This document shows, one piece after another, positions 25,642 through 33,245 of a stretch of 64,000 bases of DNA. Below the pieces are notes generated by a model, which saw only the letters and a list, made by a program, of their open reading frames with translations, had not been told where the DNA came from and ran no database searches. A program made the translations under genes and the position numbers. The stretch is from assembly GCF_002224485.1 (NCBI RefSeq), contig NZ_CP022463.1, positions 2,186,990 to 2,250,989 on the forward strand. Direction: 5' to 3'. The DNA comes from Sinomonas sp. R1AF57. GTDB lineage: Bacteria; Actinomycetota; Actinomycetes; Actinomycetales; Micrococcaceae. How positions within the stretch are numbered: position 1 is the stretch's first letter; each line of letters opens with the position of its first letter.

Positions 25642-26958
25642 CTAGCGCGGGGCCTCTAGGCCTGCTTTGGTACCACGTCTAGCGAAACGGCGTTTTTGCT
25701 GGACAGGTGCACACACGAGCTCGGCGATGGCCTTCCGCAGAGCCGAATCGGGCGCCGATTCGAGGAGGACCGAGCCGCCAAGCAGCGCCGCGTCGGCCGC
25801 AGCGCCGTCGAACGGGATCATGGCGGCCACGGGCACGCCCGGGCCGAAGCGCTCCCATGCCTCGCGCAGCGCGCGCTCGGGGAACCGCCCGATCGAGGAC
25901 TGCCTGACCTTGTTGAAGACGACCCTCGGGCTAGCGCTCGGGACGGCCTGCTCCAATTCAGAGATGGCCCGCACGAGGCGGGGCATTCCCACGGCGTCGG
26001 CTGCGCCCACGGCGAACACCCGGTCGGCAAGCTCGAGCGAGCGCAGCGTCGCCGCATTCCGGCGGGGCGCCATGGTGTCGAAGCTGAGCTCCTCGTCTGC
26101 CTCCAGGCAGAAGGACACATCCACGACCACGGCGTCGGCAACCTCGCGGCACCTCCCGATCACGTCGCCGAAGGCCGCCGCACGCAGCTCCGGCCACCGA
26201 TCCGCGCGGGTGAGGCCGGTGAGGACGCGCAGCGTCCCGCCGCCGACGACAACAGGAGTCGCAATGCGCTCGAGCGCCTGGCGGTCCAGGAGCCCCTGGT
26301 CGGCGAGCCTGCAGGCCTGTGCGAGGCCGGCGGAGTCGTCGAGGAGCCCGAGTGCGGGGGCGACAGAGGCTCCGTAGGTGTCGGCGTCGACCAGCACGAC
26401 GGCGCGCCCGTCCGCGGCGAGCTCCGCGGCACAGTTCACGGCGACCGTCGTCCGGCCGGGCGAGCCGATGGGCCCCCACACGGCGATCACCTCGCCCAGG
26501 CTCTCGGGGTCGCCGTCGTCCCCGCCGGAGCCGTCTGAGGCGTCCGCGACGGGTTCGGCGAGCGGGCGGGCACCGGCGACCGCGAAGGATGACAGGGACA
26601 CCGGGTCCTGCGCCACCTGCTCCACTGCGCGCCCGATGAGCCGCGCGAGCTCAGGCGCGGGGACGGACTCTGGCGCTGCGAACAGGCCGAGCGCGGAGAG
26701 CCTGGCCCGCTCGGCGTCGTCGTCGGTGAGACCGACCAGGGCCACACCGACGGCGGCGAGCCGGTCCGCGAGTGTCGCGGTGATGTCCTGGGTGCCCCCC
26801 GCCACGACGGCGGCCCGGGCGAGACCGGTCTGGCAGGCAGCGATGAGCTCGGAGAGCTCGCCGCAGCGCCTCACCACCGTGACCGGCCCGTGGAGCCGCT
26901 CGAGCGACCCGACGAGCTCGGCTTGGCCGGCGCCGATGGTGACCACGGGAATGCTCAT
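25642..26958 (-). CDS. CpaE/ParA-like P-loop ATPase with altered Walker A
   Basis: 438 residues. Residues 1-115 form a receiver-like Rossmann domain without a clear phospho-acceptor; a Gly/Asp-rich linker follows; then a MinD/ParA-type ATPase domain with WGPIGSPGRTTVAVN (161-175) and VVLVDADTYGAS (187-198). The deviant Walker A has Arg169 where most relatives carry Lys, and there is no early KGG lysine. The two-domain layout is that of CpaE/TadZ, which localises Flp pilus assembly, but no pilin, CpaF ATPase or TadB/C gene is nearby. ATG at 26956-26958 overlaps the stop of the SAF-domain gene (ATGA), so the two proteins are very likely partners. Function unknown; family assignment good. Confidence 0.8.
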   Translation of the reverse strand: MSIPVVTIGAGQAELVGSLERLHGPVTVVRRCGELSELIAACQTGLARAAVVAGGTQDITATLADRLAAVGVALVGLTDDDAERARLSALGLFAAPESVPAPELARLIGRAVEQVAQDPVSLSSFAVAGARPLAEPVADASDGSGGDDGDPESLGEVIAVWGPIGSPGRTTVAVNCAAELAADGRAVVLVDADTYGASVAPALGLLDDSAGLAQACRLADQGLLDRQALERIATPVVVGGGTLRVLTGLTRADRWPELRAAAFGDVIGRCREVADAVVVDVSFCLEADEELSFDTMAPRRNAATLRSLELADRVFAVGAADAVGMPRLVRAISELEQAVPSASPRVVFNKVRQSSIGRFPERALREAWERFGPGVPVAAMIPFDGAAADAALLGGSVLLESAPDSALRKAIAELVCAPVQQKRRFARRGTKAGLEAPR

Positions 26959-27632
26959 CGCGTCCCGCCCGCGGGATTCCACACGAGCGAGACCTTCGCC
27001 TCGTTGGCCTGGGCGCCGAGGAGCTTGGGCAGTCTGGCGTCGTCGACCAGCACCAGCACGCGCGTCTCGCGGCTTCCGCCGAGCGTCGAGGTGGCGGCCT
27101 CGCGGTGCGCGATCTCGGCGCCCGGAACCAGGAGCACAGGTTCCGCGAAGCCGTTGCGCCCATCGGGAAGAGCGACCCAGATGTCGACCCGGGTCCCCGG
27201 CTGGGCTTCCGCGGGCAGCGAATCCCCTGCGCTGACGGAGACGGGCTTGCGGTCCACTGCACGCGGCTCACCGAGGCTCGACGCCGGGACGAGATCACCC
27301 TTCGCGACGCGCTGCAGCGCGACACGGCCCTCGGGAGGCGCGCCTGCGCGGAGGTATCGGCCTTCGGCGTCGCCCAGCCTGACGTCGACCTGCTCGAGCA
27401 GAGTCGCGTCGACCGGCTGTCCGACGGCGATGTCCTCCTTCGCGGAGTAGACCGGGACGGTCACATCCGCGGCGTCGACCAGCGCGACGACTCCGGCGGT
27501 CGACGCCAGGACGAGGAGCAGGCCCACCAGGAGCCGCGGATCCTTCCACGAGGGCCGCGACATCCTCGCTCCGGGTGGGTTGGCGGCTGGGCTCCTCGAG
27601 CCTGACGGCGTTGTGGTCATGGCAGCGGACAT
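26955..27632 (-). CDS. SAF-domain membrane-anchored protein (CpaB/RcpC-like)
   Basis: 225 residues: a basic cytoplasmic N-terminus, one membrane helix (LLVGLLLVLASTAGVVALV, about 32-50) and an external part with an SAF domain, VTVPVYSAKEDIAVGQPV through the KGDLVPASSL block, then a beta-rich C-terminus. CpaB/RcpC proteins of this form bind peptidoglycan or the secretin in Tad pili. Start chosen at ATG 27630-27632, which has a GGGGGGA site six bases upstream; ATG 27620 is a weaker alternative. It overlaps the ParA/CpaE-like gene by four bases. With no other Tad genes, it probably belongs to a different envelope-linked system together with the ATPase and the LysM protein downstream on the other strand. 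Confidence 0.8.
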   Translation of the reverse strand: MSAAMTTTPSGSRSPAANPPGARMSRPSWKDPRLLVGLLLVLASTAGVVALVDAADVTVPVYSAKEDIAVGQPVDATLLEQVDVRLGDAEGRYLRAGAPPEGRVALQRVAKGDLVPASSLGEPRAVDRKPVSVSAGDSLPAEAQPGTRVDIWVALPDGRNGFAEPVLLVPGAEIAHREAATSTLGGSRETRVLVLVDDARLPKLLGAQANEAKVSLVWNPAGGTR

Positions 27633-27729
27633 CGAGATCCCCCCTCGAACGCGGGCCGCACCCCGGCCCCCCGGCGACATTGTGTCCGGCGGGCGGCGGT
27701 GCGCCCAAGTCACACCACGCCAAAGGGGG

Positions 27730-27745
27730 TCAAACTGTGGATAAC
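27730..27745 (+). promoter_or_regulatory. Candidate operator TCAAACTG-N4-YAAC, site 1
   Basis: TCAAACTGTGGATAAC lies 47 bases before the HTH gene start. The same TCAAACTG-N4-YAAC pattern occurs twice in tandem upstream of the LysM gene, the nearer-distance match ending at the identical distance from its ATG. Confidence 0.5.
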
Positions 27746-27780
27746 TCCACCAACGAGTGTTGAACCAGTCCCGGCGGTGG

Positions 27781-27786
27781 CAGAAT
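27781..27786 (+). promoter_or_regulatory. Leaderless -10-like element (CAGAAT)
   Basis: CAGAAT ends six bases before the ATG at 27793. TTGAAC at 27760-27765 could be a -35 but the spacing (15) is short. No clear ribosome-binding site is present. Confidence 0.4.
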
Positions 27787-27792
27787 GTGACC

Positions 27793-28014
27793 ATGCCTCG
27801 TTTCCTGACGCTCGCGGATGTGTGCGAACAGCTCCAGATCAGCTCGGCGCAGGCGTACGCGCTCGTGCGCAGCGGCGAGCTCAAGGCCATCCAGGTCGGC
27901 GGCCGCGGACAGTGGCGGGTCGAGGACGTCAAGCTGGAGGAGTACATCCAGGCCAGCTATGCGAAGGCCGAGAAGATGCTCGCCGAGAACCGTCGCTCGC
28001 ACAGCGCAGGCTGA
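27793..28014 (+). CDS. Small excisionase/MerR-type HTH DNA-binding protein
   Basis: 73 residues. MPRFLTLADVCEQLQISSAQAYALVRSGELKAIQVG is a winged helix-turn-helix of the AlpA/excisionase/BldC class, followed by a wing (GRGQWRVEDVKLEEYI) and a short charged helix. No effector domain. There are no phage genes nearby, so a chromosomal regulator is more likely than an excisionase. A GTG at 27757 is an alternative start in the same frame, but ATG 27793 fits the family start and has a -10-like hexamer six bases before it. It sits between the divergent SAF/ATPase operon and the hypothetical and LysM genes, and a shared sequence motif upstream of itself and the LysM gene makes it the likely local regulator. 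Confidence 0.8.
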   Translation: MPRFLTLADVCEQLQISSAQAYALVRSGELKAIQVGGRGQWRVEDVKLEEYIQASYAKAEKMLAENRRSHSAG

Positions 28015-28038
28015 CCCGACGTTCGCCGCGCCAGCCGC

Positions 28039-28596
28039 TCAGCCGCCGGACCGCACCGCCAGTAGCGCCGCGAACGGGATCAGCAGCGTGCGCGGCTGCC
28101 GCTCGTCAGGCGCCTCCGCACCGTCGGCGCGCGTGACCTCGAGGTAGTCCCCGCCGACGACGTCGATCCTGCCGGTGACCGTCCAGGGATCCGTCCTGCC
28201 CACGTCCACCATGCAGCCCACCACCACGCGGTCGCGCGCGAGCGCACGCAGCCCTGAGGACAGCGAGAGGGAGCGGCGTACGGCTGACTCCTCGCGCGCG
28301 GCACGCCGTCCCACGCCTGCGACTGTGGCGACCGCGTGTGCCGGAATCAACAGGCTCCGCGGTGGATCCTCCAGAACGAACCACGTGTCCGCGATCTGGC
28401 TGACCTTGCCCCGGCACCTCGTCCCGTGGCGCAGGAGGACCTCGACCGGCCGCCCCGCACCAGCCCGCAGCCGGTCCGCCAGGAGCACCGCAGACTGCTC
28501 GGCGCGCGCTCTCTCCGCGACTTCTGCCTCCAGATCGAGGTGCCCCGCCGCGGCCATCTGCGCTTCGAGGTCTGAGAAGAGGGCATCCCACCGCAT
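28039..28596 (-). CDS. Conserved actinobacterial hypothetical protein
   Basis: 185 residues, soluble, without signal or membrane segment. It begins MRWDALFSDLEAQMAAAGHLDLEAEVAERARAEQ-like (an acidic helical N-terminus), then two beta-rich halves, each with a strand ending in TLLIP or SLLIP followed by a small helix, suggesting an internal duplication of an SH3- or Sm-like barrel. Similar proteins in Arthrobacter relatives are sometimes labelled Fis-family regulators, but I see no HTH. Its start is six bases after TAGGGT (leaderless). Its last codon is 25 bases from the HTH gene end, convergent, and it is divergent from the LysM gene. Confidence 0.7.
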   Translation of the reverse strand: MRWDALFSDLEAQMAAAGHLDLEAEVAERARAEQSAVLLADRLRAGAGRPVEVLLRHGTRCRGKVSQIADTWFVLEDPPRSLLIPAHAVATVAGVGRRAAREESAVRRSLSLSSGLRALARDRVVVGCMVDVGRTDPWTVTGRIDVVGGDYLEVTRADGAEAPDERQPRTLLIPFAALLAVRSGG

Positions 28597-28602
28597 GCGT
28601 CA

Positions 28603-28608
28603 ACCCTA
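28603..28608 (-). promoter_or_regulatory. Leaderless -10 element (TAGGGT)
   Basis: Minus-strand TAGGGT ends six bases before the ATG at 28596; no ribosome-binding site. Confidence 0.6.
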
Positions 28609-28677
28609 GAGAACGCACCCCCCGCTAAGCAATTGCCCTCGTATCCCGCCATCACTGGACAAAGTGTTCTGTTCGTG

Positions 28678-28716
28678 ATCAAACTGGATCTAACGACATC
28701 AAACTGGATCCAACGA
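28678..28716 (+). repeat. Two 19-bp direct repeats, period 20
   Basis: ATCAAACTGGATCYAACGA occurs at 28678-28696 and 28698-28716, differing at one base. The 20-base period is close to two helical turns, as for a head-to-tail bound regulator. The repeats lie 25-64 bases upstream of the LysM gene and share TCAAACTG-N4-YAAC with the site before the HTH gene. Confidence 0.8.
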
Positions 28717-28741
28717 GCCAAGCGCCTATGTGGGGGAAGAC

Positions 28742-29620
28742 ATGGAGAACACGCAGCGTCAGCAGGTCATGGCAGACGCACTGACCACCGCGGCAGTACT
28801 GGTCCTGGCGGCCGTGCTCGTCGTCGCAGGCACGATGCTTGCGGGAAGTCTCGCGCCGGGCGCCTCCGGTGACTGGCTGCGGATCGCACCGGACGCGTTC
28901 GACGGCGGCACGCTCCCGGGCTTCGACGTCCTCCTCGGGCTCCTCGCAAGCGTGGCCGGGCTCGCGGCGGTGACCTGGTGGCTGCTCTCCATGGGCTTGG
29001 CCGTCACGGCGGCCCTGCTGGCTGCCGCCGGCGCGCCGCGCGCGTCGGGGATCACTGGGGCCTTCGCGCCGGCCTTCATGCGCAGGCTTGCCCTTGCCGT
29101 GCTCGGCCTCAGCCTTGCGGCCGCGCCTGCCGCGCACGCGGACACACTTCCCGATCCGACATGGCAGCCGTCGGTCTCGGTTCCCGAGACGCTCGCTGCC
29201 ACACCCCACGCGTCCGCGGCCGCTGGCGCGGAGACTCCAGCAACACAGTCTCCAGCAGGACAGACCCCAGCAGCAGAGACAGCACCGGCCGAGGCGGCAC
29301 CTGCGGAGACGACAGCCGCCGAATCCGCCCCCGAGCCGACGCCGCTCCCGCAGCCCGGCTGGACACCGTCCGCTCCCCTGGCCCCGACGGGCCTGCTGAT
29401 CCAGCAGCCCGCCCGGGGAGCAGAGGCCGCGGGGATGACGACTGTCGAGGTCCGCCCCGGCGACACCCTCTGGTCGATTGTGGCAAGGCATCTCGGGCCG
29501 GGTGCCACGGAACTCGACATCGCTGCCGCCTGGCCCGACTGGTACGCGGCCAACAGGGGTGCGATCGGGGACAGCCCGCATCTCATCCTGCCGGGCCAGC
29601 TCCTCACCGCACCGCACTGA
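28742..29620 (+). CDS. Membrane-anchored LysM-domain protein
   Basis: 292 residues. Three hydrophobic segments (about residues 15-37, 62-95 and 105-130, the last ending AAPAAHA) are followed by a long Ala/Pro/Glu/Thr-rich linker with repeats such as PAETAPAEAAPAETT, and a single C-terminal LysM domain (VEVRPGDTLWSIVARHLG, WYAANRGAIGDSPHLILPGQLL). The LysM binds peptidoglycan and the linker can span the wall. ATG 28742 has a GGGGGA site upstream; GTG 28730 is in frame. Downstream by 87 bases is the Rv3235-family gene. Proteins of this build occur next to Rv3235 family genes and secA in many actinobacteria, but no function is known. Confidence 0.82.
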   Translation: MENTQRQQVMADALTTAAVLVLAAVLVVAGTMLAGSLAPGASGDWLRIAPDAFDGGTLPGFDVLLGLLASVAGLAAVTWWLLSMGLAVTAALLAAAGAPRASGITGAFAPAFMRRLALAVLGLSLAAAPAAHADTLPDPTWQPSVSVPETLAATPHASAAAGAETPATQSPAGQTPAAETAPAEAAPAETTAAESAPEPTPLPQPGWTPSAPLAPTGLLIQQPARGAEAAGMTTVEVRPGDTLWSIVARHLGPGATELDIAAAWPDWYAANRGAIGDSPHLILPGQLLTAPH

Positions 29621-29707
29621 GACTCCTCGGCTCCGACGCTACCGGGACCCGAACCGCGCACACGAACGTCCCGCAACCACGCCGCCGACCTGCAAAGGAA
29701 GCACGCC

Positions 29708-30415
29708 ATGACATCACTCGCCGTCGTCGCCGGCTCAGCCGCGCTGGACGAGAAGACAGCACCTGACTCTCCCGGACGCGCTGGTCCGTCGGCGCCCCGC
29801 CGCTCCTCGGATGCCGAAGCCGGGGACCCTGCCGCCGTGGTGGTCCACGTCGTCCCGGACGGACCGCGCACCGCTGACGTCCTCCGCTTCCACAGGCCGC
29901 GGCGGGAGCGGTCGGCGACGCCGGGACCAGACGTCCGGACCTCCGGGAACACGGCGCTGGCCCCCGAGCAGGCGGAGCGCCAGAGGCCACCTGCGAGAGC
30001 GCTGCGCGCAGTGGCCCAGCCTGACGAGGCCGGAGAAGTGCGACACCTCGCCGCCTCGATCACCAGGGCCATCATGGAAGTCCTCGCGGGGGTGCGCCCG
30101 CTGCAGCAGCTTGTGCCGTGGCTCCACAGGGACCTGCTGGCGCCCATCGAGTTGCGCAGTGCCCTGTCGCGTCCCCGGCCGGCCCCAGGCCCGCGACAGG
30201 GACGCGACAGGGACGCCGCCCGGACAATCCCACCGAAGCTCGCCTTGGCACACCGCGCGGTGTCCGTGCGCTCTGTGCACGCGGCCCGGGTGGCGCCGGG
30301 GATCTACGAGGTCGCGGTCGTCGTGGTCGACGCCCTCCGCTGCAGGGCGGTTGCGCTGCGCCTCGAGTCGGGCGACGGGGCCGGGTGGCAGGTCACCGCG
30401 CTCGAGATCGGCTGA
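29708..30415 (+). CDS. Rv3235-family protein
   Basis: 235 residues: a low-complexity N-terminal half, a helical segment ASITRAIMEVLAGVRPLQQLVPWLHRDLLAPIELR, and a compact C-terminal beta-sheet region VSVRSVHAARVAPGIYEVAVVVVDALRCRAVALRLE. The two latter blocks define the Rv3235 family, conserved in actinobacteria beside secA. Function is unknown; the fold around the helical motif is shared with a putative SecA-proximal accessory, but that is only positional. AAAGGA precedes the ATG. It follows the LysM gene in the same direction and ends at the shared terminator with secA. Confidence 0.85.
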   Translation: MTSLAVVAGSAALDEKTAPDSPGRAGPSAPRRSSDAEAGDPAAVVVHVVPDGPRTADVLRFHRPRRERSATPGPDVRTSGNTALAPEQAERQRPPARALRAVAQPDEAGEVRHLAASITRAIMEVLAGVRPLQQLVPWLHRDLLAPIELRSALSRPRPAPGPRQGRDRDAARTIPPKLALAHRAVSVRSVHAARVAPGIYEVAVVVVDALRCRAVALRLESGDGAGWQVTALEIG

Positions 30416-30458
30416 GACGGGCCCCAGTCGCCACTTCGCGCTATTCGGCCAGCCAACG

Positions 30459-30502
30459 ACGACGCCGGCCCTCCCCCACTGAAGGGGGAGGGCCGGCGTC
30501 GT
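30459..30502. terminator. Bidirectional terminator between Rv3235-family gene and secA
   Basis: Arms 30459-30477 and 30484-30502 are perfect 19-base complements with loop actgaa. The stem begins ACGACGCCGG, the clamp shared with other terminators in the window. Confidence 0.85.
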
Positions 30503-30521
30503 GCGTCTGCGCAGCGGCCCG

Positions 30522-33245
<2,724 letters not shown>

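Follow-up and report, generated by a model that had tools for sequence, protein, structure and literature searches.

Tandem 10-bp direct repeats as the predicted operator of a small BldC-like protein at the LysM-Rv3235 operon of Sinomonas and related actinobacteria

In this study, we report tandem arrays of a 10-base-pair (bp) unit, A-T/G-CAAAC-N3, which lie upstream of a small helix-turn-helix (HTH) gene and of a LysM gene in Sinomonas sp. R1AF57. The window analysed is a 64,000-nucleotide stretch of contig NZ_CP022463.1, and all coordinates of the Sinomonas locus refer to it. The units are arranged head to tail at intervals of one helical turn. Judging from sequence comparison and a structure model, we consider it probable that the HTH protein acts as a dedicated oligomeric regulator akin to BldC; it probably represses the LysM-Rv3235 operon and, in Micrococcaceae, would also regulate its own gene. 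The genes and predicted operators concerned are the following:

27793..28014, + strand: HTH gene, 73 amino acids, HTH_17/excisionase-type winged HTH with a predicted BldC-like fold
28742..29620, + strand: LysM gene, 292 amino acids, N-terminal half hydrophobic (by eye), C-terminal LysM pattern; predicted regulated gene
29708..30415, + strand: Rv3235-family gene (DUF6459; PF20060, E 7.3e-22), second gene of the predicted regulated operon
28678..28717, + strand: predicted LysM operator, four 10-bp units ATCAAACTGG ATCTAACGAC ATCAAACTGG ATCCAACGAG
27709..27768, + strand: predicted operator at the HTH promoter, up to six degenerate 10-bp units, the best at 27729-27738

The first-pass annotation of this DNA had described a longer motif, TCAAACTG-N4-YAAC, and the positions that it gave are correct: exact copies lie at 27730-27745, 28679-28694 and 28699-28714, the first of them 5' of the HTH gene, and the HTH-side core, like the first of the two on the LysM side, ends 47 bases before its ATG (27793 and 28742, respectively). 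The 19-mers at 28678-28696 and 28698-28716, presented there as direct repeats, do keep a period of 20 bp, but one base differs between the copies. The full-genome scan which had been suggested returned three exact matches in 3,939,870 bases, all at this locus, and none for the reversed control. With up to two mismatches, the core gave three matches in the window against 1.21 expected, a number reached by 11 of 100 shuffles, and 40 in the whole genome, where the reversed control gave 48; being no commoner than its control, the mismatch scan of the 16-mer was uninformative as a test of signal and was discarded. The 16-mer with its period of 20 had to be given up as the repeat unit, since a side-by-side print of relatives resolved the 20-bp repeat into a pair of 10-bp units. 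Read in register, the HTH-side units (27709-27768) are GTCACACCAC GCCAAAGGGG GTCAAACTGT GGATAACTCC ACCAACGAGT GTTGAACCAG.

The spacing of the units was counted in 80 named loci, a unit being defined as NCAAAC or TCAAAN on the HTH strand. It must be noted that this rule demands CAAA plus a preceding T or a following C, and those columns are biased. There were 113 unit pairs at 10 bp, 70 at 20, 36 at 30 and 29 at 40, with no more than 8 at any other distance up to 45 and no more than 6 at other spacings of 5-17 bp; the reverse strand of the same loci held four pairs in total. At least one pair at exactly 10 bp was present in 68 of the 80 loci, and the pairs clustered 5' of the LysM gene, for the most part at +820 to +1150 counted from the start of the HTH gene. 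The base frequencies of 222 units were A 80% at position -1, T 71% or G 22% at position 0, the rule-fixed CAAA, and then C 74%. In addition, a unit matrix trained on loci with the HTH gene was used to scan 3' of that gene, and spacing 10 beat all other spacings from 6 to 16 in 118 of 149 loci, compared with 12 of 146 when a control stretch 5' of the gene was scanned. The loci long enough for these analyses were 145 of 150 for the base frequencies and 149 of 150 for the spacing scan. Only the Nocardioides-group set and the sets without the HTH gene, both described below, are independent of the matrix training. Several genomes were counted twice, as a named locus and under a G handle, and the family names of the latter (e.g., Nocardioides-group, Microbacteriaceae) are tentative readings of group codes.

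Two individual loci differed in layout. In G191 (L207), at about 1428-1462, the array is inverted in place with the LysM gene in its normal orientation. In G018 (C4:146999-147464, L027) there are two adjoining HTH gene matches, with a 10-bp array about 400 bases 5' of the anchor one.

Within the genus (15 genomes), a two-unit pattern with at most one mismatch gave 15 matches, all of them at this locus, and the reversed control gave none; five of the genomes had no match. A three-unit pattern with at most three mismatches fell at the locus in 31 of 35 cases, and its reversed control returned 15 matches. The class-wide two-unit scan was less specific: by hand count, 14 of 48 matches lay 0.8-1.2 kb from an HTH start and the other 34 were scattered, some of them in genomes lacking the HTH gene, with 13 matches for the reversed control.

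The gene order P-loop(-), HTH(+), DUF(-), LysM(+), Rv3235(+), SecA(-), where DUF denotes a domain of unknown function, was found by tblastn to be conserved in many genera. The originally proposed link between the HTH protein and LysM/Rv3235 survived the conservation check that had been suggested with it: of 74 loci in which HTH, Rv3235 and LysM co-occur, 71 have spacing 10 as the winner. When HTH and Rv3235 are present and LysM was not found, it wins in 11 of 15, and of the four loci where it does not, three (L118 and L156, which are an identical stretch, and L148) still show 10-bp units by eye. A further set comprised 40 genomes with no HTH match or with a weak one only (best 2.1e-20), 39 of which have Rv3235. 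G099 had no Rv3235 match and G258 and G056, with the match at a contig end, were left out, and 37 regions were read. A diverged HTH with an altered GGRGQWR wing lies near Rv3235 in 10 of these 37. Spacing 10 wins in one of the 36 regions in which the HTH was absent or weak and no LysM pattern was found, and that one with a negative score. The remaining genome of the 37, G047 (L290), is the principal finding against the proposed regulation: it has LysM and a variant 10-bp array (about 2425-2460), seen by eye and missed by the matrix scan, and no HTH ortholog was found in it. Possible causes are an array decaying after recent loss of the HTH gene, the use of the array by another protein, or a gap at the HTH gene in the assembly.

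The Nocardioides-group genomes separate the operon from the regulator gene. In them the HTH gene is kept beside the P-loop gene with no LysM at that place, and DUF6459 was found once in each of the 16 genomes. In 15 of these, Rv3235 is at least 78 kb from the HTH gene or on another contig (in G215, for instance, at 3.32 Mb vs. 1.15 Mb); in the sixteenth, G303, the operon lies about 4 kb from the HTH gene and the array is present too. These Rv3235 regions carry GCAAACNNACGCAAAC, or a sequence much like it, 5' of LysM. Strict pairs occur in 14 of the 15 trans genomes, or 15 of 16 with G303, the exception being G232 with GTAAACGTACGCAAAC, and spacing 10 wins in 15 of 15 (16 of 16 with G303), a set which was not used in the matrix training. 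Fourteen of the 16 regions showed a LysM pattern; none was found in G180 and G198. Since the array precedes the distant Rv3235 operon, we infer an operator that acts in trans; by its location, the predicted operator tracks the LysM-Rv3235 operon rather than the HTH gene.

The base before CAAAC varies with residue 34 of the HTH protein. Among 119 labelled loci, those with Q34 have T in 61 cases, mixed arrays in 4 and G in 1, and those with K or R at this residue have G in 36 (six of them hand-labelled Nocardioides-group loci), T in 9 and mixed arrays in 8. The same holds within one family code, f38, where Q34 (L204, L211, L212, L227) goes with TCAAAC and K/R34 with GCAAAC. On a tree of the P-loop protein, from which the 12 mixed arrays of the 119 loci were dropped, independent changes were few, with two supported pairs, both concordant, a result that is not significant. 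The 10-bp code has seemingly been re-specified in evolution, with T or G before CAAAC.

The HTH protein belongs to Pfam HTH_17 (E 6.4e-11) and to NCBIfam TIGR01764 (32 bits, cut-off 28.8). Searches by sequence against the Protein Data Bank (PDB) did not reach BldC: the phmmer matches were limited to gp41 constructs, with E values no better than 0.29, and a profile search returned Pukovnik Xis (E 0.21) and one ribosomal protein. The structure model, with a predicted local distance difference test (pLDDT) score of 93.4, shows a very small, MerR-like winged-HTH fold as in the BldC family, without any extra domain. Its best Foldseek matches were the BldC-DNA complexes 6ama and 6amk, with a root-mean-square deviation of 1.3-1.8 A over 47-53 columns; BldC was the closest solved fold by Foldseek and the second by VIA-align. 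The BldC-type class assigned to the protein on first inspection is supported by the predicted fold.

BldC of Streptomyces is likewise a small single-domain winged HTH (6ama, 6amk) that binds direct repeats head to tail with a variable copy number (PMC5859096), and at the smeA-sffA site one turn is occupied per protomer (PMC11963761); the candidate sites of the HTH protein are also direct repeats of one orientation, apart from the inverted array of G191, and of variable copy number. Its head-to-tail interface sets Phe21, Val23 and Trp31 against Leu11, Ile40, Thr42 and Gly44, together with Glu16-Arg22 (PMC5859096). When these residues are mapped solely through the shift of about 7 positions in the alignment with 6amk, L14, I16, L24, F4, I33, V35, the invariant G37 and D9 of the HTH protein would fit, and the counterpart of Arg22 would be Q15. 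By the structural-alignment offset, the counterpart of BldC Arg30 differs, being alanine, and the last helix of the model (residues 45-72) is longer than alpha-3 of BldC, given as 51-60 (PMC5859096); the BldC family lacks a coiled-coil dimerisation domain. The sites differ as well, with a period of exactly 10 bp and ATCAAAC/GCAAAC units here, whereas the whiI-opt site of BldC is AATTXXXX(C) in 9-bp repeats (PMC5859096). Unlike the wide regulon of BldC, the candidate sites of the HTH protein within the genus amount to about one operon and the HTH gene itself. Phage and integrative and conjugative element (ICE) excisionases of the HTH_17 group (Pukovnik Xis, 4j2n; RdfS, 8dgl) share the Pfam/NCBIfam group and the fold, and cooperative filaments have been reported for proteins of this type (PMC11963761). 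In contrast to them, the HTH gene is chromosomal, its synteny is kept across many genera and a strict repeat period precedes a fixed operon.

Potential promoter elements were read by eye 5' of both genes:

27778..27786, + strand: probable extended -10 of the HTH gene (TGGCAGAAT), 6 bases before the ATG
28656..28661, + strand: probable -35 element of the LysM promoter (TGGACA), placed 17 bases 5' of the first TCAAAC

A similar -10-like element stands directly before the HTH start in many of the relatives printed, and the HTH mRNA is probably leaderless. In the Nocardioides-group LysM regions, also read by eye, TTGAC is usually followed after 17-18 bases by a TTGAAT-like element, and then come the array and the ribosome-binding site; the array begins 2-3 bases past the -10-like element and reaches the ribosome-binding site.

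In the mechanism that we propose, HTH protomers would bind the 10-bp units one per helical turn, on one face of the DNA, and would oligomerise head to tail over two to six tandem units. At the LysM-Rv3235 promoter the array would be flanked by the probable -10 and the ribosome-binding site, a position from which bound HTH protein would block RNA polymerase and which makes repression the most likely outcome. In Micrococcaceae, a second array would cover the -35 of the HTH promoter, whose mRNA is probably leaderless, together with the sequence 5' of it, and lead to autoregulation. This second effect, proposed from the start, is supported mainly in that family: 17 of the 80 named loci, all Micrococcaceae by name, carry a strict unit pair between positions -61 and -73 relative to the start of the HTH gene, with one more at -107. 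The LysM-side array is class-wide.

Classical MerR regulators activate transcription via DNA distortion, and the HTH protein might do the same at the LysM operon. The array stands 5' of the probable -10 in L207 and on the HTH promoter, as such a role would have it, and BldC bends DNA (PMC5859096); against this, the Nocardioides-group LysM array is located (by eye) 3' of the -10-like element, a position typical of repressors, and we regard activation as rather unlikely. The arrays could also be sites of another regulator, with the HTH gene merely a further target. Response regulators of the OmpR/PhoB type (e.g., MtrA) are general in actinobacteria and use direct repeats about one turn apart. 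They are the other well-characterised bacterial direct-repeat binders according to PMC5859096. A GTCACA element that borders the HTH array on its upstream side is in keeping with them. Such regulators being general, they would not readily account for spacing 10 winning in only 1 of the 36 regions that lost LysM and have an absent or weak HTH, nor for the covariation of the unit with HTH residue 34, and this explanation appears improbable. Less probable still is that the repeats act in the LysM RNA leader, as a protein- or ribosome-binding element, and not in DNA. The LysM-side array does lie directly before the ribosome-binding site and probably 3' of the transcription start, but the exact 10-bp helical phasing and the HTH-side copy 5' of a probably leaderless start argue otherwise, the inverted array of G191 is easier to reconcile with a DNA site than with one in RNA, and an Rfam scan of 27000-31000 gave nothing at the gathering score.

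The region shared by the HTH gene and the divergent SAF gene contains, in addition, a DnaA-box sequence:

27736..27744, - strand: DnaA-box sequence TTATCCACA (TGTGGATAA is its reverse), inside the HTH-side copy and overlapping operator units 3 and 4
26955..27632, - strand: SAF-domain (CpaB-like) gene, divergent, sharing the HTH intergenic region (PF08666, E 0.0017, under the curated cut-off)
25642..26982, - strand: P-loop (CpaE/ParA-like) gene, 3' of the SAF gene and co-lost with HTH (CbiA, E 4e-9)

The SAF domain was checked in the window, L207 and L290, and the L207 match was too weak to name. In the 250 bp 5' of the HTH gene, TTATCCACA was the most widespread 9-mer, present in 62 of 169 distinct regions (178 reduced by identity of the last 60 bases), while 1680 permuted words of it averaged 0.1 regions. 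Either TTATCCACA or TTGTCCACA was found in 86 regions and T[TC][AG]TCCACA in 110; outside Micrococcaceae, one of these two strict forms, TTATCCACA or TTGTCCACA, occurred in 31 of 92 and, with variants, a box in 51 of 92. Elsewhere in 109 loci there were 6 strict boxes in 694 kb (L126 was left out, its upstream part being too short). The whole genome contains 47 TTRTCCACA against 6 for the control, with three of them within 380 bp, about 2 kb from a putative ParB open reading frame. Box-like words also occur in 10 of the 16 Nocardioides-group LysM regions (L244-L259), 43-45 bases before the array and next to the -35, and three are exact TGTGGACAA.

As in promoters regulated through DnaA boxes, TTATCCACA or TTGTCCACA is present in the SAF/HTH intergenic region; unlike them, there is usually one box beside a small regulator, and it may serve the divergent gene. 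Speculatively, DnaA could compete with the HTH oligomer for the box inside the HTH array and tie the HTH level to replication. That the box works for the SAF/P-loop operon alone, or is a promoter element of another kind and unconnected with HTH, is a competing possibility to which we give somewhat less than an even chance. It may belong to the SAF gene: G047, in which no ortholog of HTH was found, keeps a variant box, TCGTCCACA, before that gene (about 3106). Of 30 genomes whose HTH is absent or weak, 27 lack the P-loop gene, and by this co-loss SAF, P-loop and HTH may form one module. Against a role restricted to SAF, the box keeps a constant distance to the HTH start (-45 to -47) in Arthrobacter-group loci and survives beside a diverged HTH in 9 of 10 regions of a group taken for Microbacteriaceae, two observations that do not fully separate the two promoters. 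A class-wide circuit, in which DnaA would act on the SAF/HTH promoter (competing directly with HTH oligomers for overlapping sites in Micrococcaceae), HTH would set LysM-Rv3235 by way of the helically phased operators, and SAF/P-loop, HTH and LysM would be a cell-cycle-timed module lost as a unit in several lineages (taken to include Streptomyces and Mycobacterium), is offered as a tentative and doubtful proposal. If true, it would couple replication initiation to the cell envelope.

With respect to the remaining genes, the LysM assignment is based on a GDTLW pattern common to the orthologs, and the product gave no match in Pfam or NCBIfam. One further gene lies between HTH and the LysM promoter:

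28039..28596, - strand: conserved DUF gene (tblastn synteny)

Its product has a very weak Hfq/Sm-like match (E 0.19). A GC-rich inverted repeat at 30461-30500, with CCCTCCCCCACTGAAGGGGGAGGG at its centre, was seen by eye between the convergent Rv3235 and secA genes and is probably a terminator common to both.

A literature search of titles and abstracts in a single library found nothing on this HTH/LysM-Rv3235/DnaA-box circuit and nothing for DUF6459. The comparative evidence gives a predicted operator and a target operon to a member of the large group of small HTH_17 proteins whose sole annotation is "excisionase family", and head-to-tail recognition by BldC-like proteins becomes testable base by base. 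It also opens a way into the LysM-Rv3235 (DUF6459) operon, which lies next to secA and is uncharacterised, and suggests that DnaA may be involved.
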